Shown: positions 2,687 through 21,658 of the stretch, piece by piece
Layout: each line of letters begins with the position of its first letter
How positions within the stretch are numbered: position 1 is the first letter of the stretch
Origin: a virus
IMG/VR virus record: IMGVR_UViG_3300030090_002600
Span: 1-21,658 of that record
DNA: 21,658 nucleotides
Direction: 5' to 3' (one strand)
Position numbers and translations under genes: made by a program
The notes under the pieces: generated by a model
Told to the model about the DNA's origin: nothing
The model's input: the letters and a program-made list of their open reading frames with translations, nothing else
Database searches by the model: none

Positions 2687-5600
2687 TTATTTAACAGGCA
2701 AATTTGTAATGTTTTCAAGTTGTTCTTCTCTCGTCTGGCGATACTGATTGGCATCATCAAGACTGTTTCTGCGAGTAGCATCCTTCTGCATACCTTCGAG
2801 AGCTTTAGCATTGCCGACAACTTTGTTGTTTTGCAACTTCCAAGCCGCCCAGGCTGCGTCAAAGTATTTCTTTTTAAGCCTTGTTAGTTCTTCATGAATA
2901 TAGCTGTCTTCGATTTTCAGGTCTCTGCCTGATTGCTTCCATTCTTTAGCAAACTTACCTCCATCCTGTTCCATCAGCTTCGTGATGTCAGATACCCATT
3001 GTCCTTTTAACTCTTGACCGATGTACCTATTGATCCACTGACGAGTATCAGGAGTAATCTCCTCACCAGTTTCTTTGTTGATCATAGGTTCAGATAGACC
3101 AGTCCAGCCAGTAGAAAGCATCCACTTGCGCCAGTCTTCAGTACCACCTTTGGTGTTCCAGAATGGCATCACACGACCCACCAGTGCCTCTAGAGGACCG
3201 ATATTACCGTAGATAGGTTCACCAGTAAAGGGATCGATGTCATCCTGCAGCAGCGGGTCAGTGATAAACCTGTTGCGGTTAGCAAGATAAGCCAGGAAGT
3301 TATCCTCTACATCCTGCAGTTGTGGTGTAATCACATTGTTAAGAGCACTGCGTACACCAGCACCAGGGATCATAGTATCCACCAATCCAGAGAAGTACCT
3401 CTCCATACTACCAGGGTCACCATTGATGAGACCTGATAGAGTTTCTACCTCAGAACCAAAGTATTCATTACCTACATTAGCTGACAATGCAGTAGCAATA
3501 GCACGGAACCAGTCCTGTGATTGCTCACCATCAACACCAGCAAAAGCATTAGTAATGTCAGCAGTCAAGCTAAGTGACATCTTAACCCAGTCAGGAGCAT
3601 TCTCATAGGAACGACCGAACAGCATATAGGGTTTATATCCAGCACGAATAGCACGCTTCTTATCAGCAGGTGACATATTAGAGCCACTACCAGTCAGTTC
3701 TCCTGACATAGCAGCCATAGCACCGGTCATTACAACACCACTGGTAGCCATCTTGCGACCAATGTACTCAGACTTAAGCATCAGGAAGTCATCCATTGTA
3801 CCTCCCTTAAAACCATGCTCCTCAAGAACTGACTTGACAGCAGCAGGGTCACCAGCATCAGCCATGATAGTCTTGAATGACCTGTTCTGCCACAGGCTTA
3901 GGACACCTGTAGGATCATAGGTCTGCACCACAGAGATAGCATTGATCTTGGTGCGAGGGAACATAAAGATACCCTTGAGAATAGGGAACTTATCCATTGC
4001 CTTCTCAATAGCCTGGATAGCAGGGACATCAGCATTTAGTGCGATTTCCTCACTAGCAAACTTGGCGTAACCATCTTTCAGTACACCATCATCATCAAAG
4101 GCTTGAGAGTATAAATCCTTTTCCAGCTTTACAAAGTCCTCTTTTACAAAGGCACCGTTGTTCTGTGCAATGACATCATCGTATGCCTTAAGGCGAGAGT
4201 CAAAGCTAGCCATGACAGACTTCAGGAATCCATCAGCACTATACATGGCATTAATTCCCCAACGATTGAAGTTTCTACCATTCCATGTATTCAGCCATTT
4301 AGTAGCATTCCATAGTGCTTTCCTACCAGGACTAAAGGTTTCTGATAATTCCTCCAGTTCCTCGAAGTCAGCCAGTGTCTTCTTAGGATCAGATGTACCT
4401 TGAGCAGAAAAGTCATAGTCCTTACGACCACGCTTCATAGCAGAGTTAGGGTTAGCGTTAGCAAAACGCCACTCACTCCGTGCCATAGCAGTAGCACGAC
4501 GGATAGTTTCTCTCAGCTGACTAAAGGCGTTGAGTGATCTTTGCAATTGCTTGAAGTCACCTGTGGCAACACCAAGAGCAACAGAGCCAGACAGTTGTGT
4601 CATAGGTCTGAGTCCAACAGCAGCAAGGTTTTGTACCCAAGCTACAGCAGGTGCAGTACCGTTGATCATGTTAGCGGTCCTAGCAGACTGCATCTCTTTC
4701 AGAATCAGTGATGGTACTTCAGGGTCACCATCAGCAATAGCTTTACGCAAAAGTCCCAGTCTTTTATTCAAGTACTGGTTTAGCTTATACATGCTATCAA
4801 CTTCACCATTTGTCTTAGCAAACAGACGGTAGACAGGCTTTAGGAATGATGGATTCTCCTTAGCCATTTCAGTAAGCTCATCAACAAAGTCGTCAATGGC
4901 TATTGATTTCGCCTCAACAGACTTGGTGTAAGCATCGAACATTTCGTTCATATACTTCTCATCAACCTCCAGAGCACCCTCAATAGTGCTTACATCTTTT
5001 GCCAGTTTCTTCTGTAGTGTGGTAGACATTGACTCAGAGATCTGTGATGTAGCTTGTTCTTTGAGCAGCACCCGTAGGCGTGGCATCATAATCTCCTGCA
5101 GACGTGAGGTGTCAGCAACAGGTTCCATCAGGTCTACATTCCTAGCAATATCAGAAACACCAGCAGCAGTCTGTGCCTGGATAGCAGCAGATGTACGGAG
5201 TCGCTGTGGACTCATAGCATCTGTCAGCCGTTCTATGGTCTTACCAATGACCTTTCTACCACCACGACTGGTGACAGTGTCAGTCATATTACCGACCTTC
5301 AGTTCGAGGTCTCGAAACTGTTTAACAGTATCATCAAAAGACTTACCAATAGGAGCAATAGCAGCATCATAGAGATTATTAATAGCCTGATTAATTTCTG
5401 CTGAAGTCAGTTTCTTACCACCAACCACAACATCAAACTCAGCACGAAGTGCTTCCTCAGCTTGTTGCATGATAACCTTCCGACCACCAGCATCAGCTCT
5501 AGACAGGATCTCCTGTGTGTCGTTGTCCAGCAGAGGTCTAGCTCTACCTTCATAGGTGCCTACATTGTTCTGGATTCGTGCTTGGTCAGCCATGAAGTCT

Positions 5601-13952: not shown

Positions 13953-14369
13953 TTATGAGATAGTAGCAACTTTTACAGTGACGCCAGTGTCACCCACAAC
14001 AGTCAGGACTTCATTAACAGCGTAGTTAGATCCCGTAGCAACGAGAGTAAAACCACTTGCTGCATTAGAAGAGACAGTGTAAGTAACGGTAGCTCCAGTA
14101 CCAATACCGCTGGACGTGGTAGCCACAGCAGTTTCAGTACCATCACCCTTAGTGGAGACAGTACCAACGCCAGTGATAGTGGCGACGGGTCCGAGATCAA
14201 GTTCAGGGACAAGCGGGTCACTAGAGGTGACCGTGGTGTACTTAGACTTAGCAGCAGTCTCACCATACTCCACAGGCGTCAGCGGATTCTGTGTAGTAGA
14301 AACCGCCTTCGCCGGAGGGTTAGTAATGGTAGCGTGCTGCCCAACACCTGGTGTAATATTCGTAGCCAT
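13953..14369 (-). CDS. Putative capsid accessory/decoration protein, 138 aa
   Basis: 138 aa, directly after the capsid gene and preceded by the strongest Shine-Dalgarno sequence in the window. The N-terminal third is Pro/Thr-rich and may be extended (residues 1-60). Residues about 60-138 are beta-rich and Gly/Thr/Val-rich (TVSSNAASGFTLVATGSNYA, then NEVLTVVGDTGVTVKVAT), a pattern I know from structural proteins of marine phages. A single small beta domain next to the capsid and before the terminator suggests a head decoration or fibre protein. It could also be a T7 gp10B substitute, since no frameshift extension of the capsid is evident. The function is an inference. Confidence 0.78.
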   Translation of the reverse strand: MATNITPGVGQHATITNPPAKAVSTTQNPLTPVEYGETAAKSKYTTVTSSDPLVPELDLGPVATITGVGTVSTKGDGTETAVATTSSGIGTGATVTYTVSSNAASGFTLVATGSNYAVNEVLTVVGDTGVTVKVATIS

Positions 14370-14376
14370 GTGTCAG

Positions 14377-14383
14377 ACCTCCT
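14377..14383 (-). promoter_or_regulatory. Strong Shine-Dalgarno site of the 138-aa gene
   Basis: AGGAGGT on the minus strand, seven bases before ATG 14369 and directly after the capsid stop TGA. Most other starts in the window have no such match, so this gene is likely translated at a high rate. Confidence 0.85.
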
Positions 14384-14384
14384 A

Positions 14385-15473
14385 TCAGTCGGCTGCCTGC
14401 AGTTCAATAGCAGCAGCAGGGTTGAGCCAGTCGGCACCCATTGCGAGGCGTCCGATGATCATGTCACCTTGGTACATTGCCTTCACGTCACCACCAGTGG
14501 TTTGGACGGAGGGACCAATGCCTTCGACAACAGCAGCAGCATCACGCTGATAGATCAGACCACAGTGAGCAGAGAAGTCACCAGAGTAGTCGTTGTTCTC
14601 ACCATCGACACGTGCAACAGTACCAGCCATGAAAGGCAGGTTGTTGGAGCGCTTGATGGAGATACCAGCAATCTCATAGAGACCTTCACCGCTGTTCATG
14701 TTACCACCAGTGGCACCATAGTCACGGTTCAGGATGTTGGTATCAACTTGAGAGATGAGTGCGTAGTACTGACGAGGAGACAGCACTGCGGTACGTCCAG
14801 CAGAGGGAACGTTCTTTTCATCGAGAATCGAAGCAGCTTCAAAGAAGCCATCCACCAAAGCCTGAGCGTTGAACTCATTACCAGCACCCAGCTTGATGAT
14901 AGAACCACCAGGCTCGGGACCAGGAGCAGCAGTGATGGGATGTGCCTGACGAGCAGACTTCGCAATGATGCGGAAGATCTTCTTGTCATATGCTTCAGCC
15001 AGAGCGTGACCGATCTTGGCAGAGATCTCGCTACGCAGAGAATAGTGTGCGAGGGTCTCGTCCAGGTCATACAGGAAGGCACTGGAGACCAGCAGATCAT
15101 CCATGATGACGGTCTTCTCAGCCACCGGAGGATCACCAGATCCAAGGATGGGAGTACCAGGCTGATGGTAATCAGCAGTCATGCGTCCCGTGTAGATGAA
15201 CTGAAGGCTCTTACCATTACGGAGAGAGCGAGTCTGAACAGTTCCTTTAGCGATGCACTGACTCTCGTAAGCTTTGATCATCTCTCCACTGAACAGTTTG
15301 AGATACGTCGCATACTTAGCGTCGTAGTCAGCACCACCTTGGGTGAGACCAAGACCAGGAGTCTTGTTAATATTACCAGTTGCGGTAATACCTTGGTCGG
15401 CTTTAGTGCCGTAGTTACGGGTTACACCCGTGTTGATTTCGGTAATAGAATTACCTTGTTGAGAAAATGCCAT
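14385..15473 (-). CDS. 10: Major capsid protein (T7 gp10A-like)
   Basis: 362 aa (T7 gp10A is 345), HK97-fold family by similarity to T7 gp10. Matching parts are YLKLFSGEMIKAYESQ (57-72), SLRNGKSLQFIYTGRMTADY (83-102) and EKTVIMDDLLVSSAFLYDLD (119-138). These are followed by ETLAHYSLRSEISAKIGHAL, then PRQYYALISQ for the peripheral domain. It assembles on the acidic scaffold encoded upstream. The gene is the first after the structured 158-base intergenic region. ATG 15473 lies in ATAACAATGG, one base different from the shared start string; no Shine-Dalgarno is seen. The Ala/Leu-rich end has no slippery site for a gp10B-type extension. Confidence 0.97.
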   Translation of the reverse strand: MAFSQQGNSITEINTGVTRNYGTKADQGITATGNINKTPGLGLTQGGADYDAKYATYLKLFSGEMIKAYESQCIAKGTVQTRSLRNGKSLQFIYTGRMTADYHQPGTPILGSGDPPVAEKTVIMDDLLVSSAFLYDLDETLAHYSLRSEISAKIGHALAEAYDKKIFRIIAKSARQAHPITAAPGPEPGGSIIKLGAGNEFNAQALVDGFFEAASILDEKNVPSAGRTAVLSPRQYYALISQVDTNILNRDYGATGGNMNSGEGLYEIAGISIKRSNNLPFMAGTVARVDGENNDYSGDFSAHCGLIYQRDAAAVVEGIGPSVQTTGGDVKAMYQGDMIIGRLAMGADWLNPAAAIELQAAD

Positions 15474-15502
15474 TGTTATAATGTAAATGTATAGACAGGT
15501 TC

Positions 15503-15514
15503 TCTAGATCTAGA
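15503..15514. repeat. 12-base perfect palindrome TCTAGATCTAGA
   Basis: Perfect inverted repeat in the A/T-rich part of the capsid leader, about 30 bases before the capsid ATG. It could be a protein-binding site or a weak hairpin; no function is known to me. Confidence 0.6.
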
Positions 15515-15548
15515 ATAAAATTTTTTTCGGAATTTTTACGGTCTTCCT

Positions 15549-15562
15549 TACCGCTAGCGGTA
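15549..15562. repeat. 14-base perfect palindrome TACCGCTAGCGGTA
   Basis: Perfect palindrome in the leader. It overlaps one arm of the 7-bp stem formed by 15559-15565 and 15581-15587, so the two hairpins exclude each other in RNA. This may allow two alternative leader folds. Confidence 0.75.
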
Positions 15563-15587
15563 GTGGTATCGGCGTACCGGCACTACC
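15559..15587 (-). repeat. Inverted repeat GGTAGTG ... CACTACC with inner stem
   Basis: Seven perfect pairs between 15559-15565 and 15581-15587. The inner stem CGG-CGTA-CCG is at 15570-15579. It is part of the capsid leader. Confidence 0.75.
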
Positions 15588-15596
15588 AATGCTGAT

Positions 15597-15615
15597 GGGA
15601 GGACTTGCACCTCCC
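15597..15615 (-). repeat. Hairpin GGGAGG-TGCAAGT-CCTCCC (T-arm-like)
   Basis: Six perfect pairs and a seven-base loop. The loop resembles the T-loop of a tRNA (TTCRANY) but with G in the second place. No acceptor, D or anticodon arm can be drawn around it, so it is listed as a hairpin only. Confidence 0.75.
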
Positions 15616-15624
15616 TGTCCGCTT

Positions 15625-15633
15625 TTACGGGTC
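15625..15633 (-). promoter_or_regulatory. Candidate phage RNA polymerase promoter core (ACCCGTAA)
   Basis: Minus strand GACCCGTAA just at the stop of the 35-aa gene and upstream of the structured capsid leader. From memory, the promoter of the cyanophage Syn5 RNA polymerase is ATTGGGCACCCGTAA; the last eight bases match here, while the upstream half does not. A related ACCGTAAAA occurs about 90 bases downstream. Another ACCCGTAA lies inside the capsid gene, so chance cannot be excluded. Confidence 0.4.
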
Positions 15634-15739
15634 AGCCTATCTCTTTGTAGGTCACGCCACGATAGCGCAGAGCATCAGTGTGATAACGCTGAGCACGCTT
15701 CTTTTGATTGGCGAGGAAACGAATGAGATTAATTGACAT
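15632..15739 (-). CDS. 35-aa protein with YRGV motif
   Basis: ATG 15739 is preceded by GGAG at seven bases' distance (GGAGAACTATTATG), a good ribosome binding site, which supports a real gene. The product is 35 aa: a short apolar start (MSINLIRFLA), a basic centre (NQKKRAQRYH) and the end ALRYRGVTYKEIG. The LRYRGVxY string is the hallmark of a small cyanobacterial domain that I know as DUF4278, of unknown function. It lies between a 62-aa gene and the capsid leader. I cannot assign a role. Confidence 0.72.
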   Translation of the reverse strand: MSINLIRFLANQKKRAQRYHTDALRYRGVTYKEIG

Positions 15740-15753
15740 AATAGTTCTCCGTA

Positions 15754-15777
15754 ACTGTGCCCCGTTCCATGCACAGT
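15754..15777 (-). repeat. Intergenic hairpin ACTGTGC/GCACAGT
   Basis: Seven perfect pairs with a ten-base loop, in the 40-base gap between the 62-aa and 35-aa genes and ending just before the GGAG ribosome binding site of the latter. There is no T-run. It may be an RNase processing site or a barrier protecting upstream psbA mRNA. Confidence 0.65.
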
Positions 15778-15779
15778 CG

Positions 15780-15968
15780 TCATGCGTCTCTGTCGATTAG
15801 GTAGCTTGCGTCAAGCATAGCTCTGTCGATCTCAAGACACATAGCTTTGATGGCTTCCTGTTCTACAGGAGAACCACCAGGCCATTTCTCAAGATACTGT
15901 TTCACTGCTTTGTTTAGCAGTAGGAGAGCTACGTGATTGACTTCAAACTTGAAAGTGTAATCAGACAT
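15780..15968 (-). CDS. Small protein after psbA, 62 aa, unknown
   Basis: 62 aa, starting 18 bases after the psbA stop. The sequence is helical and amphipathic: KFEVNHVALLLLNKAVKQYL (residues 7-26), then PVEQEAIKAMCLEIDRAMLD. There is no signal peptide and no full membrane helix. The aliphatic run LLLLNKAVKQYLEKW might be a dimer interface. I do not recognise a family. It is translated with psbA, so a link to photosystem function or capsid assembly are both possible; neither is shown. Confidence 0.75.
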   Translation of the reverse strand: MSDYTFKFEVNHVALLLLNKAVKQYLEKWPGGSPVEQEAIKAMCLEIDRAMLDASYLIDRDA

Positions 15969-15985
15969 AGATGAACGTACGAAGA

Positions 15986-17044
15986 TTAACCGATAGCTGG
16001 TGCCTTATAGGTAGCCAGGTCTAACGGGAAGTTGTGAGCATTGCGTTCATGCATGACTTCCATACCGAGACCAGCTCGATTAAGGATGTCAGCCCACGTA
16101 TTGATCACATGTCCTTCAGAGGACTGGATCGATTGATTGAAGTTGAATCCGTTCAGGTTAAAAGCCATGGTAGATACACCAAGAGCAGTGAACCAGATAC
16201 CAACAACAGGGAAAGCAGCAAGAAAGAAGTGGAGACTCCTACTATTGTTAAAGCTCGCATATTGGAAGATGAGTCTGCCAAAGTAACCATGCGCCGCCAC
16301 AATGTTGTAGGTTTCTTCCTCTTGTCCAAACTTGTATCCATTGTTATGACTCTCCTGTTCTGTAGTTTCACGAATGAGACTAGACGTAACCAGTGAGCCG
16401 TGCATAGCAGAGAACAATGCTCCACCAAACACACCTGCTACACCCATCATATGGAAGGGATGCATCAGGATGTTATGCTCAGCCTGGAAGACTAGCATAT
16501 AGTTAAAGGTACCACTGATTCCAAGTGGCATTGCATCAGAGAATGAACCCTGACCAAAGGGATAAACCAGGAACACGGCGCTAGCTGCTGCAACAGGTGC
16601 AGAGTAAGCGACGAAGATCCAGGGACGCATACCTAGTCGATAACTAAGCTCCCATTCTCGTCCCATGTAAGCAAAGATACCGATAAGGAAGTGGAAGATA
16701 ACGAGCTGGAATGGTCCACCGTTGTAGAGCCACTCGTCGAGGGTGGCTGCTTCCCAAATCGGATAGAAGTGCAATCCAATAGCGTTGCTAGAGGGAACGA
16801 CTGCACCTGAGATGATGTTGTTTCCATAAAGTAGAGACCCTGCTACGGGTTCACGGATGCCGTCGATATCGACAGGCGGAGCTGCCACGAAGGCAGTAAC
16901 AAAGCAAATGGTTGCAGCCAGAAGGGTAGGGATCATAAGGATTCCGAACCAACCGACATACAACCTGTTGTTAGTGGATGTAACCCACTTGCAGAACTCA
17001 TCCCAGGATGACTGGGTATTCTGCCGTTGTAAAACTGCGGTCAT
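15986..17044 (-). CDS. psbA: Photosystem II D1 protein
   Basis: 352 aa, a complete D1. Key residues sit at their standard numbers: Tyr161, Asp170, Glu189, His190, His198 (P680 ligand), His215, Ser264 (QB pocket), His272, His332, Glu333, His337, Asp342 and Ala344, the C-terminal processing site. Five membrane helices are visible. Residue 130 is Glu, as in high-light D1 forms. After Ala344 only eight residues follow (TYKAPAIG), shorter than the roughly 15-16 of most cyanobacterial D1 precursors. In cyanophages this gene replaces the fast-turning host D1 to keep electron flow going during infection. It lies between scaffold and capsid genes with hli nearby. No Shine-Dalgarno precedes the ATG, which overlaps the stop of a 12-codon mini-ORF. 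Confidence 0.99.
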
Positions 17045-17082
17045 TAGTTAAGTATGTAAGAAGACCAACCCACCCACCACAT
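17044..17082 (-). CDS. Possible 12-codon leader peptide coupled to psbA
   Basis: In the 43-base gap before psbA, ATG 17082 opens [12 protein letters not shown] and ends at TAA, whose last A is the first base of the psbA ATG (TAATG). The same overlap type joins scaffold to hli and hli to the next gene. Three Trp codons in the first six are unusual. No ribosome binding site is seen. It may equally be chance, so it is offered as a candidate only. Confidence 0.3.
17065..17078 (-). other. G-rich tract before psbA (possible two-quartet G-quadruplex)
   Basis: Minus strand GGTGGGTGGGTTGG has four G-runs with one- or two-base loops, 21 bases before the psbA ATG, in the non-template (mRNA-like) strand. 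It could fold into a two-layer quadruplex in RNA. It also codes for part of the mini-ORF. Confidence 0.45.
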
Positions 17083-17087
17083 AATGC

Positions 17088-17330
17088 TTACAGTCTGTCC
17101 ACCAAGTTGCAGCCAACAACATTCTCAGCTCCGTCATTCCAGCAGGAGTCCTTTTCAGGAGAGAGGGTTGATTGCAATTCAATGAATGGCATCAGAGGTG
17201 CAAAAATAATCTTGACGGGAAAGGGAACACCGGGACGACGGTCTGGTTGACCGAAGCCTTCATCAACTCGTGCCATAGCACCAGGTGTGATCAGCGCGGT
17301 AGCTGCGAGGATAGAGAGGATAGTTTTCAT
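17088..17330 (-). CDS. Small exported protein upstream of psbA, 80 aa
   Basis: 80 aa with a clear signal peptide: Lys2, an apolar core (ILSILAATALITPG) and AMA before the likely cut after Ala20. The mature part is about 60 residues, with a Pro-rich start (FGQPDRRPGVPFPVK) and an apolar stretch IIFAPLMPFI (41-50). Two cysteines (63 and 74) are spaced for a possible disulphide. It would go to the periplasm or thylakoid lumen. The ATG overlaps the previous stop (ATGA) and the gene ends 43 bases before psbA. I do not recognise the family. A lumenal role near photosystem II, or an envelope role in lysis or exclusion, are both only guesses. Confidence 0.8.
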   Translation of the reverse strand: MKTILSILAATALITPGAMARVDEGFGQPDRRPGVPFPVKIIFAPLMPFIELQSTLSPEKDSCWNDGAENVVGCNLVDRL

Positions 17331-17476
17331 TTTTTCTTAGCGGTCTTAGCTGACCGGACGAAGTTTGCTTTGGTTGGTGCACCTTTAGCACCAGGGTTTC
17401 TCATTTTTTCACCACTGCCAGCAGCGATACGCTTACGCTTGGCGTGGATGTTTGCATAAAGTCCTTGCTTAGCCAT
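17327..17476 (-). CDS. 49-aa basic phage protein (GLYANIHAKRKRI family)
   Basis: ATG 17476 overlaps the stop of the 39-aa gene as TGATG, and its own stop overlaps the next start as ATGA, so the reading frame fits exactly between neighbours. The product, 49 aa, begins MAKQGLYANIHAKRKRIAAG and continues SGEKMRNPGAKGAPT; it is very basic. I recognise this string as a small protein that recurs in many tailed phages and prophages, usually in the structural region, with no known function. The charge suggests binding to nucleic acid or to an acidic partner such as the scaffold. Confidence 0.85.
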   Translation of the reverse strand: MAKQGLYANIHAKRKRIAAGSGEKMRNPGAKGAPTKANFVRSAKTAKKK

Positions 17477-17595
17477 CACTTTTTCTTCATGTTTTTTGCA
17501 ATTGCTGATGCCACCTTTGCAGGCATCTTAGGGTTCTTAGCTTTGAGCTTTGCTGCAGTTTTAGATGCAGGCTTCTTTCCATAATGTCCAGGCAT
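17476..17595 (-). CDS. 39-aa basic protein (MPGHYG type)
   Basis: ATG 17595 lies three bases after the stop of the 79-aa gene, and TGA 17476 overlaps the next ATG. The product has 39 residues, starts MPGHYGKKPASK and ends in AKNMKKK; about a third of it is Lys. I have seen MPGHYGKK starts in other tailed phages next to the GLYANIHAKRKRI protein, so this is probably a real gene. Function unknown; it could bind DNA or RNA. Confidence 0.75.
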   Translation of the reverse strand: MPGHYGKKPASKTAAKLKAKNPKMPAKVASAIAKNMKKK

Positions 17596-17597
17596 GA

Positions 17598-17837
17598 TTA
17601 ACATTTCCATTTACGAAGAGCAAGTGCCTTTCTGGTAGGCTTACCATTTTTTCTCATCGGTCCTTTGACTCCTGACATCCTGGCACAGAAGGACCGCTTG
17701 CGTGGTCCTCCACCAGGTTGAGGTGCTTTCAGGTTAGAACCTGTCGCTCGATTGTACTTCTCACGACCTGCTTTAGTCAGACCGCCAGAGCGGGACTTGT
17801 GTTTGCCCATCTTGAGTGACACATTCTTCTTATCCAT
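17598..17837 (-). CDS. 79-aa basic protein with SFCARMSG ... ALRKWKC motif
   Basis: 79 aa, strongly basic. Conserved-looking parts are KSRSGGLTKAGREKY (14-28), LKAPQPGGGPRKRSFCARMS (36-55) and GKPTRKALALRKWKC (65-79, ending in Cys79). I recognise this as a small phage protein family (I believe DUF6321) with no known function, found in many tailed phages. Cys51 and the terminal Cys79 are its only cysteines. The ATG overlaps the hli stop (TAATG), and the 39-aa gene follows after two bases. A later ATG (codon 10, MGKHKSRSGG) is the other possible start. Confidence 0.85.
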   Translation of the reverse strand: MDKKNVSLKMGKHKSRSGGLTKAGREKYNRATGSNLKAPQPGGGPRKRSFCARMSGVKGPMRKNGKPTRKALALRKWKC

Positions 17838-18028
17838 TACCAGATCCCAGGAATGAGCTGACCGGTAACGGCGTACGCACCCAGTGCGGCGACCACACCA
17901 AGCATAGCCAGGCGTCCATTAAGTTTTTCAGCTTTTTCGTTGTGAGTTTCAGTAACATTCATAATAATCATTGGTGGTTCTTTTGCATAGAGATTGGCGC
18001 GTCCGCCATCTTCGATAACGTAAGTCAT
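17837..18028 (-). CDS. hli: High-light-inducible protein (Hli)
   Basis: 63 aa with one membrane helix. Residues 34-63 carry the chlorophyll-binding LHC-type motif ExxNGRxAMxG (Glu34, Asn37, Arg39) and the typical end YAVTGQLIPG. The N-terminal part (MTYVIEDGGRANLYAKEPPM) is like that of other cyanophage Hli proteins. Hli proteins sit in thylakoid membranes, bind chlorophyll and carotenoid and protect photosystem II and newly made D1. The start shares the A of the scaffold stop (TAATG) and the stop is shared likewise with the next gene. It lies 1 kb upstream of psbA in the same direction, so the two are likely co-transcribed. Confidence 0.97.
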   Translation of the reverse strand: MTYVIEDGGRANLYAKEPPMIIMNVTETHNEKAEKLNGRLAMLGVVAALGAYAVTGQLIPGIW

Positions 18029-18795
18029 TAGTATTGGATGTTTGAACGACCCAGTTTCTGGAACACATCGTTCCTGTATGCAGGGTCATTGTCGTAACGT
18101 GGATCTTGCATGGCTGCAACAACTTCAGCCTGTGAACGGAAGACATCAGCCTGTGGTTGTGCTGCCTTACCGGTCAGCATCTCACCTTCATAGCCATTCT
18201 GTCTTTCATACTCAGCTTGTAGTCCTGCTACAGCCAGCTCAATCATACGCATATCACCAGTCTCTACAATATTATCATAGGCGGTGATATAGCTTTCATC
18301 AAGAGTACCAGCCGCCCATTCAGTAAGAGCAGCGTAACCCTCATCACCACCAACCATGCCTCTGATCTCAGCAGCTTGCTGATCAGTCAGGTCATTGTTC
18401 TGGGTGGTCTGTCCCTGCAGATCGATGTATGCAGCGATCAAATCAGTGCTATCAAGTTGTGACAACTCATCGATAGTCTCTTGACTAAGAGTACCATCAT
18501 TAGAGTAATACTCTTCTGATGCTTTGTTCAGTAACTCATAGTTAGGATTTACTTCTTCTTCGGCGGTCTCTTCTTCCCGCTGCAACCCTTCATCTTCTTC
18601 AGGTTCATTGGATTCTCCTAGTTTCTTTTGTAGTTCGATGTAGGCTTGCTCAAGTGCTTCTGCATCCTTGAACTTACCAGCTAGCATCTGTTGTTGTTCA
18701 GCTTCAGCAGCCTCACCAATAGCGATAGCCTCTTGCTCCGCCTCGTTGAATTCAGGCTGATCCGCTGGAGTGGGATCATACGTCAGTGTAGCCAT
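18028..18795 (-). CDS. 9: Capsid assembly scaffold protein (T7 gp9-like)
   Basis: 255 aa (T7 gp9 is about 307), strongly acidic, helical and without Cys, as scaffolds are. An acidic middle (EEDEGLQREEETAEEEVNPN, about residues 65-84) follows a Gln/Glu/Ala-rich start. The C-terminal end carries the family signature DVFRSQAEVVAAMQDPRYDN (216-235) and DPAYRNDVFQKLGRSNIQY, the part that binds capsid. It is placed between portal and capsid, with the photosynthesis cassette inserted in between. ATG 18795 overlaps the end of the basic 82-aa gene. Confidence 0.93.
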   Translation of the reverse strand: MATLTYDPTPADQPEFNEAEQEAIAIGEAAEAEQQQMLAGKFKDAEALEQAYIELQKKLGESNEPEEDEGLQREEETAEEEVNPNYELLNKASEEYYSNDGTLSQETIDELSQLDSTDLIAAYIDLQGQTTQNNDLTDQQAAEIRGMVGGDEGYAALTEWAAGTLDESYITAYDNIVETGDMRMIELAVAGLQAEYERQNGYEGEMLTGKAAQPQADVFRSQAEVVAAMQDPRYDNDPAYRNDVFQKLGRSNIQY

Positions 18796-19024
18796 TAGCA
18801 GTTTCTACTTTTAGTTTACCAAGACCAACAGTCTTTACATAGTTAGGTGAGCGTCCCAGTTTGGGAGTACCCACCTTTTCTTTTGGAGCATACTTGTTTG
18901 GCTCCGGTGTTTCCACCTTAAGCACTGGTTTCTCAGTAGGTGGATGTTCAATTGTTTCTGTGGTCCTCTTAGGTTCAGCCTGCGTCGGCTTCCGTCGGGA
19001 CCGGCGTTTGGGTGTCTCCGCCAT
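18776..19024 (-). CDS. Basic 82-aa protein between portal and scaffold, unknown
   Basis: 82 aa, rich in Lys, Arg, Pro and Thr, probably disordered (MAETPKRRSRRKPTQAEPKR, then many Pro-Glu-Lys). It ends in a Gly/Lys/Val stretch (SPNYVKTVGLGKLKVETANG). It overlaps the portal 3' end by 50 bases in another frame and the scaffold start by 20. The ribosome binding site GGAG lies seven bases before ATG 19024. Without it, 179 bases between portal and scaffold would be empty, which is unlike the rest of the window. No family recognised. Its charge is opposite to that of the scaffold next door. Confidence 0.72.
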   Translation of the reverse strand: MAETPKRRSRRKPTQAEPKRTTETIEHPPTEKPVLKVETPEPNKYAPKEKVGTPKLGRSPNYVKTVGLGKLKVETANGYTDV

Positions 19025-20579
19025 TCATTAGCTCCGGGTTTTTACTTGGGTCCATCATCGGTGCACTAGCAAATTGACCAGCTTGATCCAACAGGGACTG
19101 CTGCTGTGCCATCTGTGCCGCCTGCTCACTCTCAGCTTGTACATCACTGACACTCTTGACGAGATTCAGATAGTCAATGCCTTGTGCAGCAGCCAGACGC
19201 TTGATGTATTCATCAGGGTTGATGAACCTAGCTAGGGTCTCAGGACCCATCGTCTGTGCAATGGTTGTGATGAATTGGATAAGTGATTCCCTGTCTTGAC
19301 CACGACCCAGTGCATTTACACCAGCCACGATCTCAGGTCTCACGATACCTTTAGGTAGTTTAGGTAGCTGACCATTACGTTGCAGCACCATCAGCGTACG
19401 CTCAAGGTATGGTTTTAGGAACTCATCAGTCAGCAGGGAGAACATACCACCCAGCTGCTGCTCTAGCTCCAGTTGTGTCAGCCGTACCTCTTCAGCAGTG
19501 GTGCGCTCTGACTGTCTGATGTTCAATACCATGAAGGCATCAGAGATGCGCTGACCAAGAGTGGTTGCCATTTCATAGGCAGTCCTGAAGTCAGCTGTCT
19601 TGCCAACCTGCACAACCTGCACATCATCAGGTCTACCCTGGATGATAGCACCGTTGCCAGCTTGCGCCAGGGTCTGCGGTTTGGTAGTGGATGAGGGTGA
19701 CACTAGGAAGACCACCTTAGCAGCTGCTGCAGAGCCTTCTATCAATGCCTGAGAGAGTCCATCGAGTGACTTGAGATCACCCAGAAACTCCTCTACCCTG
19801 CCGCGTCCGTATGCTTCACCATCAAAGGAGACAAAGCGGAGAGGTAACCATGGACTAGCATTCTTAGGCGCTGTGCTCCGGCTGTTAGGCAGCACCTTAT
19901 CCAAGCACTCCTGATACCAGACCCAGCGTCCATTCTTACTGTCCATCTTGACGTGCGTGTACACTTCCACGTCATCATCCTTAGTGCCTGCACCTGTCCT
20001 TCCATTCAAACCACCGCCAGCACTAACTTCGTTTGGTTTGGGTTCGGGTACGTTGACAAGTTTACGACTGATAAGTTCTTTAGTCACGATCTCAATGACA
20101 TTGCCATTGCCATCACGTTCCAGAACATATCTGTTAAGTGGGAAGTTCTTCAGTCCATCCTTACCCATAAAGATAAGACTATTACCAGCAACAATCAAAT
20201 GCTTCATTGCTTGGTGAATCACCACACGATCATTAGATGCGTTGATGTATCCCATGACCATCCGTTCAATCTTACTGAATGACAGGTCGATCTCACTTCT
20301 GATTGTAGGGTCCAGTTCCTCACCCAGTTTATCATCACGTACTTGCAGTTTGAAGAACGTGGTTTGTGGTGGGAGCAGAGCAAGCATTAGCTTGGATGCC
20401 AATGTTACCACTGCTTTGGCACCAACTGATTGCCAAGGTGTCTTTAGGTTTGAGTGTGTGGCTGTGTCTCCCTCATTCTTCATGAGATAAGGGAGAGTCA
20501 GCTCAGCACACGTGTTAGCTACATCCAAAAACGTTGCACGATCTGTTGATAGCTCATTGTAACGACGTCGTGCATTCAT
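18975..20579 (-). CDS. 8: Portal / head-tail connector (T7 gp8-like)
   Basis: 534 aa, the usual length of T7 gp8 (536). Strong matches by eye include TPWQSVGAKAVVTLASKLML (47-66, T7 has TPWQAVGARGLNNLASKLML). YGRGRVEEFLGDLKSLDGLS is near residue 256 (T7 YGRSYIEEYLGDLRSLENLQ), and a stretch TTAEEVRLTQLELEQQLGG is close to T7 VTAEEIRYVASELEDTLGG. It forms the dodecameric ring through which DNA is packaged and ejected. The end is Gln/Ala-rich, like T7. ATG 20579 overlaps the gp7.3-like stop as ATGA, with AGGG upstream. Confidence 0.97.
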   Translation of the reverse strand: MNARRRYNELSTDRATFLDVANTCAELTLPYLMKNEGDTATHSNLKTPWQSVGAKAVVTLASKLMLALLPPQTTFFKLQVRDDKLGEELDPTIRSEIDLSFSKIERMVMGYINASNDRVVIHQAMKHLIVAGNSLIFMGKDGLKNFPLNRYVLERDGNGNVIEIVTKELISRKLVNVPEPKPNEVSAGGGLNGRTGAGTKDDDVEVYTHVKMDSKNGRWVWYQECLDKVLPNSRSTAPKNASPWLPLRFVSFDGEAYGRGRVEEFLGDLKSLDGLSQALIEGSAAAAKVVFLVSPSSTTKPQTLAQAGNGAIIQGRPDDVQVVQVGKTADFRTAYEMATTLGQRISDAFMVLNIRQSERTTAEEVRLTQLELEQQLGGMFSLLTDEFLKPYLERTLMVLQRNGQLPKLPKGIVRPEIVAGVNALGRGQDRESLIQFITTIAQTMGPETLARFINPDEYIKRLAAAQGIDYLNLVKSVSDVQAESEQAAQMAQQQSLLDQAGQFASAPMMDPSKNPELMNGGDTQTPVPTEADAG

Positions 20580-20836
20580 AATGTCATCCCTTGGCTATCA
20601 CCAATAGTAAGAGAGGCAGTGGCACGATTGGTTGTAGTGGTAGACCGTGATTTACGATCAGTAGCAGCTGCTTTCTTGGCAGCTCCAATCTTGATGTCAG
20701 GTTTAGCACCAACGTCCATCACCTGACGTGGTGGTGGTGCAGCCGCTGGCGGTGGTGGCGGTGCGGGTAGTGGTGGTGGTAGTGGCGCAGGTTTGGGTAC
20801 GGGTACCTTAGCGGACCCTCCTCCTCCCATACACAT
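20576..20836 (-). CDS. 7.3: gp7.3-like virion protein with polyproline stretch
   Basis: 86 aa. The start MCMGGGG, basic centre (IGAAKKAAATDRKSRS) and Ser/Thr-rich end (NRATASLTIGDSQGMTL) resemble T7 gp7.3 (end KKSLSVARSSGGGINI), a small virion protein required for adsorption and tail assembly. The gene lies directly before the portal, as in T7. Unusual are residues 12-36, with 16 prolines in 25 residues. ATG 20836 has GGAG eight bases upstream, inside the end of the previous gene; the in-frame ATG two codons later would be too far from it. The family call is by position and pattern, not by strong identity. Confidence 0.75.
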   Translation of the reverse strand: MCMGGGGSAKVPVPKPAPLPPPLPAPPPPPAAAPPPRQVMDVGAKPDIKIGAAKKAAATDRKSRSTTTTNRATASLTIGDSQGMTL

Positions 20837-20838
20837 AA

Positions 20839-21018
20839 TTAATTCTCCATTTGTTGTTGAATGTATTCCACGACCGAGCGTTGACCTGCACGATACATGA
20901 TTGTGGTGAGATCGTCGGCTGGCGTAGGGTTGACGGGTGGGAAAGTTTCGTTGAGCTGAGTCATCATAGCCTGGAGTTCCATGGCTCGTGACTCAAGCAT
21001 ATTGAGGGAGATTGACAT
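20839..21018 (-). CDS. 59-aa protein with IMYRAGQRSVVEYI motif, unknown
   Basis: 59 aa from ATG 21018 (MSISLNMLESRAMELQ), overlapping the 3' end of the R2-like gene by 26 bases; ATG 21000 is an alternative. The frame is open upstream to 21087 within the R2-like gene, but that part is unlikely to be used. The C-terminal half DDLTTIMYRAGQRSVVEYIQ is a motif I have met in short phage proteins near the portal gene. There is no Cys and no membrane segment. Function unknown. Confidence 0.75.
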   Translation of the reverse strand: MSISLNMLESRAMELQAMMTQLNETFPPVNPTPADDLTTIMYRAGQRSVVEYIQQQMEN

Positions 21019-21658
21019 TACTATGTTCAAAGAATGCTGGCATCCTTGCTGACCTGGTGGCAGCAAGTTCGGGTGCTTTACCCTCATACATCAGCCGGTC
21101 GCTAGAATCCAACCAAAATTTTTTTGCCAAATATTTATCGGGATTGTCCATAGTGAGCGGTTGCATCACCCAGTTAATAGTAGCCTTGCGGAGTTTATCC
21201 AGTGAGGGAGAGATGCTGAGGCCAAGCTCAGAACACACAAGACTATTGCTCGCGACGTGGATTTGTTCATCTCGGCTTATATCAGCTGAGGTTGTACGCA
21301 TAGCCGCGTCACCGTTAAAACGGAAGAATGGTAGTAGCACGAAGAAAATTGCACGCTCAGCAACCATGGCTTTGAGTACTGTGTGATCAGGATGTGCAAC
21401 CCAGGCTTCTTTGAGCTTGAGTGCTTCCCTCTCAGCTTGTTCGTCAACGCCGTAAGCATCGGCGATGAAACCGAGTGCAGCGTCGTGGTTCTCTTCATCC
21501 CGTACATTACTGACGAGTATTTCTCTCGCTGCAGACGGAATATCGGTGGAAAGTGCATCAGTAATAAAGTCTCCTACTGGGAGTTCCATATGTCGCAAGG
21601 CAAGAGCACGGTGGATTGTCTCCTCCGCCCCTTCCTTGCAGATACCAGCAACAGGTTT
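20993..21658 (-). CDS. nrd: Ribonucleotide-reductase R2-like (ferritin-like di-iron) protein, 5' end outside window
   Basis: The frame is open to the window edge, so 221 C-terminal codons are visible. Numbered from the first visible codon, metal-ligand motifs follow the R2 order. These are EETIH (Glu12/13), EENH (Glu55, His58), Glu101 in AERAIFFVLLPFF, and DEQIH (Glu131, His134) in SADISRDEQIH, which mirrors IARDEALH of E. coli R2. R2 proteins supply the radical for making deoxynucleotides. Here the residue four after the first-pair His (position 62), where R2 has the radical Tyr, is Leu. P-SSP7-type phages carry a gene of this kind before the portal. The protein may not act as a normal R2; other di-iron roles are possible. 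Confidence 0.85.
   Translation of the reverse strand, partial: KPVAGICKEGAEETIHRALALRHMELPVGDFITDALSTDIPSAAREILVSNVRDEENHDAALGFIADAYGVDEQAEREALKLKEAWVAHPDHTVLKAMVAERAIFFVLLPFFRFNGDAAMRTTSADISRDEQIHVASNSLVCSELGLSISPSLDKLRKATINWVMQPLTMDNPDKYLAKKFWLDSSDRLMYEGKAPELAATRSARMPAFFEHSNVNLPQYA

Follow-up and report, generated by a model that had tools for sequence, protein, structure and literature searches.

No auxiliary gene of cyanophages is better known than the photosystem II gene psbA, and the genes beside it are easily mistaken for photosynthesis helpers. In the available portions of two published studies, the psbA region of myoviruses is described as one hot spot for Synechococcus-enriched genes, with DUF680 among the genes present in 15 genomes (PMC3037559), and psbA is reported for all MPP-B phages and for no MPP-A phage of the set (PMC4646655).

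The two closest described kinds of protein encoded next to psbA are an outer-membrane barrel (OMP) family and RlpA-like proteins. Among 50,697 phage records, 469 contain a match to the OMP family (Pfam PF24653, phrog_417; annotated as DUF680 in many of them), and 458 of these are named Synechococcus, Prochlorococcus or Cyanophage. A structural model from 40 sequences, used only to judge this neighbour, has six long strands and a mean pLDDT of 86.5. Its nearest PDB structures are the outer-membrane barrels FapF, OmpX and OprF, all weak matches (E 0.018 or worse, none below 0.001), and its named viral structure neighbours at E < 0.001 belong to the same family. Of 101 Cyanobiaceae genomes, 17 have a match over the Pfam cut-off, in most cases lying within an open frame of 324-340 aa; in G013, G017 and other Cyanobiaceae genomes (L273, L274) such host frames, about 330 aa long, show a partial-length match to the phage family, and by this likeness they are a possible origin of the phage protein. 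The best Cyanobiaceae match lies on a contig of genome G071 (L272) that carries hli, psbA, OMP and capsid genes in phage order and is likely of phage origin, having been binned together with the host.

The DUF680 gene of phage S-TIM4 (ORF224) has been followed during host passage. According to the available text of PMC6224464, it gained 13 mutations, many of them expected to be disabling, only on Synechococcus WH8102, and their summed frequency was about 100%; the authors of that study speculate that DUF680 lowers fitness on WH8102, term it a nutrient-response gene, and describe it as without homologues in the studied host strains. The same text denies an association with the particle, whereas the available part of PMC9146016 counts a DUF680 protein among those of the S-SZBM1 virion proteome.

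In S-CBP4, the RlpA-like protein passes both TIGR00413 (114 vs. 82 bits) and Pfam PF03330. The DSL-LC07 record annotates the corresponding gene as rare lipoprotein A, and the deposited records of S-CBP4 (L002, 6372-6665), S-CBP1 (L254) and S-CBP3 (L258) have no CDS for this gene before psbA. To our knowledge, neither the outer-membrane barrels nor the RlpA-like proteins work on photosystem II.

A predicted exported protein encoded before psbA

The window analysed here, a virus record, spans 21,658 bases, and all its nameable genes lie on the minus strand in the order of a T7-like cyanopodovirus: ribonucleotide reductase beta, portal, scaffold, hli, a DUF6321 protein, a phrog_16028-type protein, an 80-aa protein (T80), psbA, a 62-aa protein and capsid (Table 1). 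The top-ranked phage record for positions 14001-21658 is that of S-CBP4 (64% query cover, 70.5% identity).

Table 1. Features of the window around the T80 gene
Feature	Position	Strand	Basis or remark
Capsid scaffold protein	18028..18795	minus	phrog_1052
hli, high-light-inducible protein	17837..18028	minus	phrog_178
79-aa protein with DUF6321 (PF19846)	17598..17837	minus	profile match
44-aa lysine- and alanine-rich ORF, between the DUF6321 and phrog_16028-type genes	17476-17610		no PHROG match at E 1
50-aa basic protein, phrog_16028 type	17327..17479	minus	left border of the slot in many relatives
ATGA, stop of the upstream gene over the T80 start	17327..17330	minus	ORF coordinates
T80, 80-aa exported protein (predicted)	17088..17330	minus	ATG start; stop codon 17088-17090
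Predicted Sec signal peptide of T80, residues 1-20, cut after AMA	17271..17330	minus	rule-based score and controls
Mature part of T80, 60 aa, Cys63 and Cys74	17091..17270	minus	sequence, comparison with the relative
43-nt gap between T80 and psbA	17045..17087	minus	ORF coordinates
psbA, photosystem II D1, right border of the slot	15986..17044	minus	phrog_182, E 7.6e-192
62-aa protein, between psbA and the capsid gene	15780..15968	minus	phrog_628, E 1.5e-8; matched by 15 ORFs of relatives
Major capsid protein	14385..15473	minus	as seed matches 81 ORFs; gene order as in annotated relatives

T80 begins with MKTILSILAATALITPGAMA, followed after the predicted cut by RVDEGF. The best cut falls after residue 20 (AMA), with a score of 12.18 on a rule-based scale that is not a trained predictor, and the Sec-type signal peptide, the mature part of about 60 residues and the two cysteines described by the first-pass annotation were all recovered. 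The rule was passed by 59 of 61 OMP-family ORFs when later ATG starts were allowed (55/61 from the first start only), and by very few ORFs of the control families: scaffold (0/140), capsid (0/81), portal (0/131), hli (1/124) and psbA (1/158). By this score and its controls, T80 has both marks of an exported protein, a Sec signal peptide and a signal peptidase I site. The mature part is acidic (6 K/R vs. 9 D/E), and its two cysteines lie within PEKDSCWNxGxxxVxxC, a stretch common to T80 and its only relative.

The start codon overlaps the stop of the phrog_16028-type gene by ATGA, and the T80 gene ends 43 nt before the psbA ATG at position 17044, exactly as had been annotated. On present evidence the ORF is a real gene, because the ATGA overlap, the high signal-peptide score and a relative at E 5e-11 with common motifs, including both cysteines, coincide. 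That the ORF is no gene at all seems very improbable, even though it is short, has a single relative, and passes a rule that 128 of 3319 unclassified ORFs of 60-200 aa also pass, 13 of them with scores of at least 12. Structure prediction, which the first-pass annotation had proposed as a check, gave a helices-only model with a mean pLDDT of 50.4 from two sequences, which was unusable and was discarded.

From these features we propose that T80 would be translationally coupled to the small basic gene upstream, given the ATGA, then exported by Sec and cut after AMA as the rule predicts. In the infected cell, the acidic mature part would then act either in the periplasm or on the inner side of the outer membrane, with Cys63 and Cys74 probably joined by a disulphide.

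Occupants of the slot beside psbA in related phages

The genomic position was compared across loci sampled by the scaffold profile (the best 80 of at least 583), by psbA (the best 80 of at least 600) and from 18 phage records, a sample that leans to near relatives of the window. ORFs were classified with iterated profile models at E 1e-4, and loci with psbA and a podovirus marker were kept. This left 113 of 146 psbA loci, or 110 after dropping L014, L057 and L104, whose psbA protein is identical to that of another locus; these three remain in the signal-peptide family tallies and in the alignment-end counts. The 33 psbA loci set aside as lacking podovirus markers include two with OMP and none with an RlpA-like gene.

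In this survey, the gene just before psbA often encodes an envelope protein, and the two kinds never occur together. Forty-nine of the 110 loci carry OMP and 33 carry an RlpA-like gene, whereas T80 is found in one (the window) and none of the three in 27. If OMP and RlpA-like genes were independent, 14.7 loci with both would be expected against the zero observed; the nominal probability of 1.5e-11 overstates this exclusion, as the loci are kin of unequal length and do not represent 110 independent events. Sixty-two loci are complete from scaffold to capsid, with OMP before psbA in 21, an RlpA-like gene before psbA in 20, OMP after psbA in 11, neither in 9, and T80 in 1. The classified gene just before psbA in these complete loci is RlpA-like (20), OMP (19), hli (11), of the phrog_16028 type (4), DUF6321 (1) or T80 (1), with none in the remaining 6.

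The position of T80, between the phrog_16028-type gene and psbA, is that of the OMP or RlpA-like genes in, e.g., S-SBP1 and S-CBP4. OMP proteins share with T80 the slot before psbA in many loci, a Sec signal peptide and small size, but their beta strands end in an aromatic residue. The RlpA-like proteins share only the slot; they have a 98-aa peptidoglycan-type enzyme domain (DPBB; PF03330, TIGR00413), and just 2 of 35 pass the signal-peptide rule, the N end being short. At the DNA level, the likeness of the window to its relatives ends at the T80 start (query 1463-1471) in 59 of 61 alignments, duplicate loci included, and T80 is covered by none; since a conserved gene finishes there too, this left end would be expected anyway, and its sharpness alone says little. 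For the 42 loci aligned on both sides, the aligned stretches are 35 to 1619 nt apart, the right-hand stretch often starting about 40 nt inside psbA.

We read T80 as a putative third occupant of an interchangeable envelope slot beside psbA, judging by position and the predicted signal peptide; T80 lies in the place that is filled in relatives by an outer-membrane barrel or an RlpA-like domain. In the available portions of the literature searched, no paper describing the exclusive slot pattern or T80 was found.

Among 16 isolates, nine have OMP, four an RlpA-like gene, and three neither (7B11-B, S-B28 and P-SSP7). The OMP isolates are recorded on hosts WH7803 (two), WH8109, WH8101, WH8017 (P-SSP2), NATL1A, NATL2A (two) and MIT9515, presumably marine or coastal strains. 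Of the RlpA-like isolates, three grow on the estuarine-clade strain CB0101 and one on a Synechococcus from a lake. The distribution suggests that the slot type is matched to the host, but three of the four RlpA-like phages share one host strain. For P-SSP2, the table in the available text of PMC4646655 gives Prochlorococcus MIT9312 as the host. The S-B28 record probably mislabels one gene (L260, 42-758), which stands at the ribonucleotide reductase beta position but bears the annotation periplasmic thiol:disulfide oxidoreductase.

Two clade A phages that lack psbA, Syn5 (22 kb part) and S-CBP42, have no match to OMP, RlpA-like or T80 models, and the slot may therefore travel with psbA. S-CBP42 nevertheless holds other ORFs that pass the signal-peptide rule, e.g., one annotated as a 159-aa hypothetical protein (L269, 32056-32535), so exported proteins are not tied to psbA.

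A family of two known proteins

The only relative of T80 found is a 97-aa protein (38% identity, E 5e-11) on the contig IMGVR_UViG_3300048136_000084 (L001; 11,266 bases). The two proteins each have a signal peptide (rule score 12.1 for the relative), VDExFG after the cut, the PEKDSCWN stretch with both cysteines and an acidic mature part, although the relative is 17 residues longer and its gene adjoins the capsid gene. The family thus has two known members, and its conservation rests on one pair. The first-pass annotation had proposed asking whether homologues sit near psbA: one homologue was found, but its contig, a fragment, has no psbA match (best chance match E 4.3), whereas the window and a Synechococcus genome locus match psbA at full length. 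The contig also carries a phrog_16028-type gene (E 2.4e-15). Its host is likely cyanobacterial, because its capsid protein is closest to those of the marine virus AG-345-A17 (47% identity) and of cyanophages S-2L (43%) and KBS-S-2A (37%). Homologues in phages of non-photosynthetic hosts, which had been named as an argument against a photosystem role, were thus not what the search returned.

Accessory "moron" genes often stand between terminator-like hairpins. The relative, behind the capsid gene, lies between two such hairpins; the two terminator-like matches in this stretch are no excess over shuffles (mean 1.8). By eye, two near-identical short hairpin-like copies (ACTCCGAAGYCTCGG) are seen at 4505-4519 and 4876-4890 of the contig, one directly 5' of the ATG of the relative and the other 5' of an in-frame ATG (4892) of the next ORF, 4811-5029.

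Profile searches assigned neither protein to a described family. T80 has no PHROG match at E 1 and its relative none at E 0.01; neither has a Pfam family or a PADLOC model at E 1; and the profile of the pair found none of the PDB sequences at E 10. In NCBIfam, T80 has only a lipoprotein-signal match, LP_plasma, below the cut-off (16.8 vs. 24 bits), and the relative two matches far below theirs. Against 50,697 phage records, tblastn with T80 returned three records, all at E 6 or worse, and the protein of the relative two records at E 3. IMG/VR searches by T80, by the relative, by a PEKDSCWN DNA pattern or by the pair led to the same single contig each time, and none of the 168 pattern matches in bacterial and archaeal contigs was confirmed. 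Cyanobacterial genomes searched with the pair gave one match at E 0.18 among 5 genomes, one among 400 Cyanobiaceae genomes (E 0.004) and none among 386 genomes across the phylum. The Cyanobiaceae match, of 12.5 bits, runs across a stop codon within a longer, unrelated-looking protein and was taken as chance. A control search with the pair recovered both known records, with the reservation that similarity searches may leave out records very near the window. On these searches, the protein family of T80 appears new.

T80 also stands apart from its slot-mates. Against PF24653/DUF680 it has no profile match (Pfam at E 1), it is not taken by the iterated OMP model, and its best blastp match to the family (E 2.3) is not significant and covers the signal peptide. 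Its C-terminal residue is L, not aromatic, and the helices-only model at pLDDT 50 is too weak to show a fold. No DPBB or RlpA profile match was obtained from Pfam or NCBIfam. The first 66 nt of the T80 gene score 22.5 against OMP genes at the DNA level, compared with a mean of 15.8 (sd 1.8, maximum 23.5) in 100 codon shuffles. A derivation of T80 from an OMP gene that kept its signal peptide and lost its barrel is not claimed, as signal peptides resemble each other.

Possible roles in the infected cell

The first-pass annotation considered exported phage proteins outside the lysis module uncommon, and took the proximity of psbA to suggest a target in the thylakoid lumen or periplasm, possibly the lumenal side of photosystem II, with superinfection exclusion as an alternative. 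The first premise fails: the OMP family, which has a signal peptide, occurs in 49 of the 110 psbA loci of this phage group. Since exported proteins are common at psbA loci, a place next to psbA argues only weakly for photosystem II, and since envelope proteins are usual there, the photosystem reading loses its main support. Export to the lumen or periplasm is supported, as far as a predicted signal peptide goes; the photosystem II role is not, given that the slot-mates are envelope proteins.

A partnership of T80 with the phage D1 protein, at photosystem II or elsewhere in the thylakoid lumen, accordingly strikes us as improbable. Sec export in cyanobacteria can lead to the lumen, and this counts in its favour together with the 43-nt distance from psbA and the blank result for all three slot proteins in psbA-less Syn5 (part) and S-CBP42, by which the slot may travel with psbA. 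But T80 resembles no known lumenal subunit of photosystem II (neither Pfam at E 1 nor the PDB sequences at E 10 gave a match); the chance-level match in 1 of 400 Cyanobiaceae genomes and none in 386 phylum-wide leave no recognisable copied host subunit; and the fragment with the relative lacks a psbA match.

To judge from sequence and gene order, the target of T80 is probably the cell envelope and not photosynthesis. With moderate confidence, we take it for an accessory envelope protein of a T7-like cyanophage, in a swappable slot, whose most likely job would be to change the envelope of the infected cell to the benefit of the phage. Against this role, a shared position is no proof of a shared function: hli precedes psbA in 11 of the 62 complete loci, 27 of the 110 loci have none of the three proteins, and the RlpA-like proteins mostly have no signal peptide by the rule (2/35). 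Within an envelope role, the specific options would rank with superinfection exclusion first, lysis help second, and envelope or nutrient physiology third, each a special case of it and none of them favoured outright.

Superinfection exclusion or receptor masking, in which T80 in the periplasm or outer membrane would block DNA entry or adsorption of a second phage, is a tentative first candidate. Small accessory envelope proteins of this kind are encoded by superinfection exclusion morons, e.g., HK97 gp15, with which T80 is compared by analogy only, no likeness being shown. T80 is predicted to be exported, small and accessory, and occurs in two unlike cyanophage types, which would agree with such a function. 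The mutations in the slot-mate DUF680 of S-TIM4, for the most part disabling and gained only on WH8102 according to the available text of PMC6224464, would be consistent with a cell-surface cost specific to that host, but the authors read DUF680 as a nutrient-response gene. Moreover, T80 matches no PADLOC model, and DUF680 has no homology to it.

Help in lysis, by action on peptidoglycan or the outer membrane, is rather doubtful. RlpA-like domains occupy the same slot in 33 of 110 loci, an endolysin gene follows psbA in 7B11-B and S-B28, and a Phage_lysozyme2-type gene stands directly before OMP and psbA in S-RIP1 (L257) and nine viral-contig loci (L017, L019, L026, L126, L131, L133, L134, L137 and L158). 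T80 itself, however, is no usual disruptin or spanin and probably no usual holin. Disruptins are cationic lysis peptides, and T80 is not net positive; as an outer-membrane spanin it lacks a lipobox, its +1 residue being R and not Cys; and its mature part has no clear second membrane span (best 19-residue hydropathy mean 1.44, by hydropathy only). The whole genomes of S-CBP4 and S-SBP1 also have no match to endolysin or lysozyme models, and the idea that the psbA neighbourhood is a fixed lysis module was rejected for that reason.

An effect of T80 on nutrient uptake or envelope stress, as proposed for DUF680 under phosphate limitation, is an unlikely third option. The slot-mate DUF680/PhCOG173 is linked to phosphate limitation in the available parts of PMC6224464 and PMC9146016, but T80 is linked to DUF680 by position only, and a study of S-PM2d (PMC10976474) calls predicted pho boxes in phage genomes unreliable in its available text. 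The word DUF680 is absent from the main text of that study.

The envelope reading could extend to the whole phage group, although we hold this wider version only tentatively: T7-like cyanophages would keep a host-matched envelope slot, in which unrelated proteins are swapped according to the host envelope, and T80 would found a third family remodelling the infected-cell surface. In this form, a set of hypothetical proteins turns into one testable question, namely, what phages need at the host envelope and whether the host decides which protein is carried. The question can be asked in phages such as S-TIP37, which has an OMP gene (gp29) in the slot and for which gene deletion is published (PMC8776855, as far as its available text goes).

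A different ORF was noticed at locus L149, which also has an OMP gene: it encodes 101 aa with a signal peptide and several cysteines, matches neither Pfam at E 1 nor PHROGs at E 0.01, and ends 223 nt before psbA, possibly representing a further cargo type.
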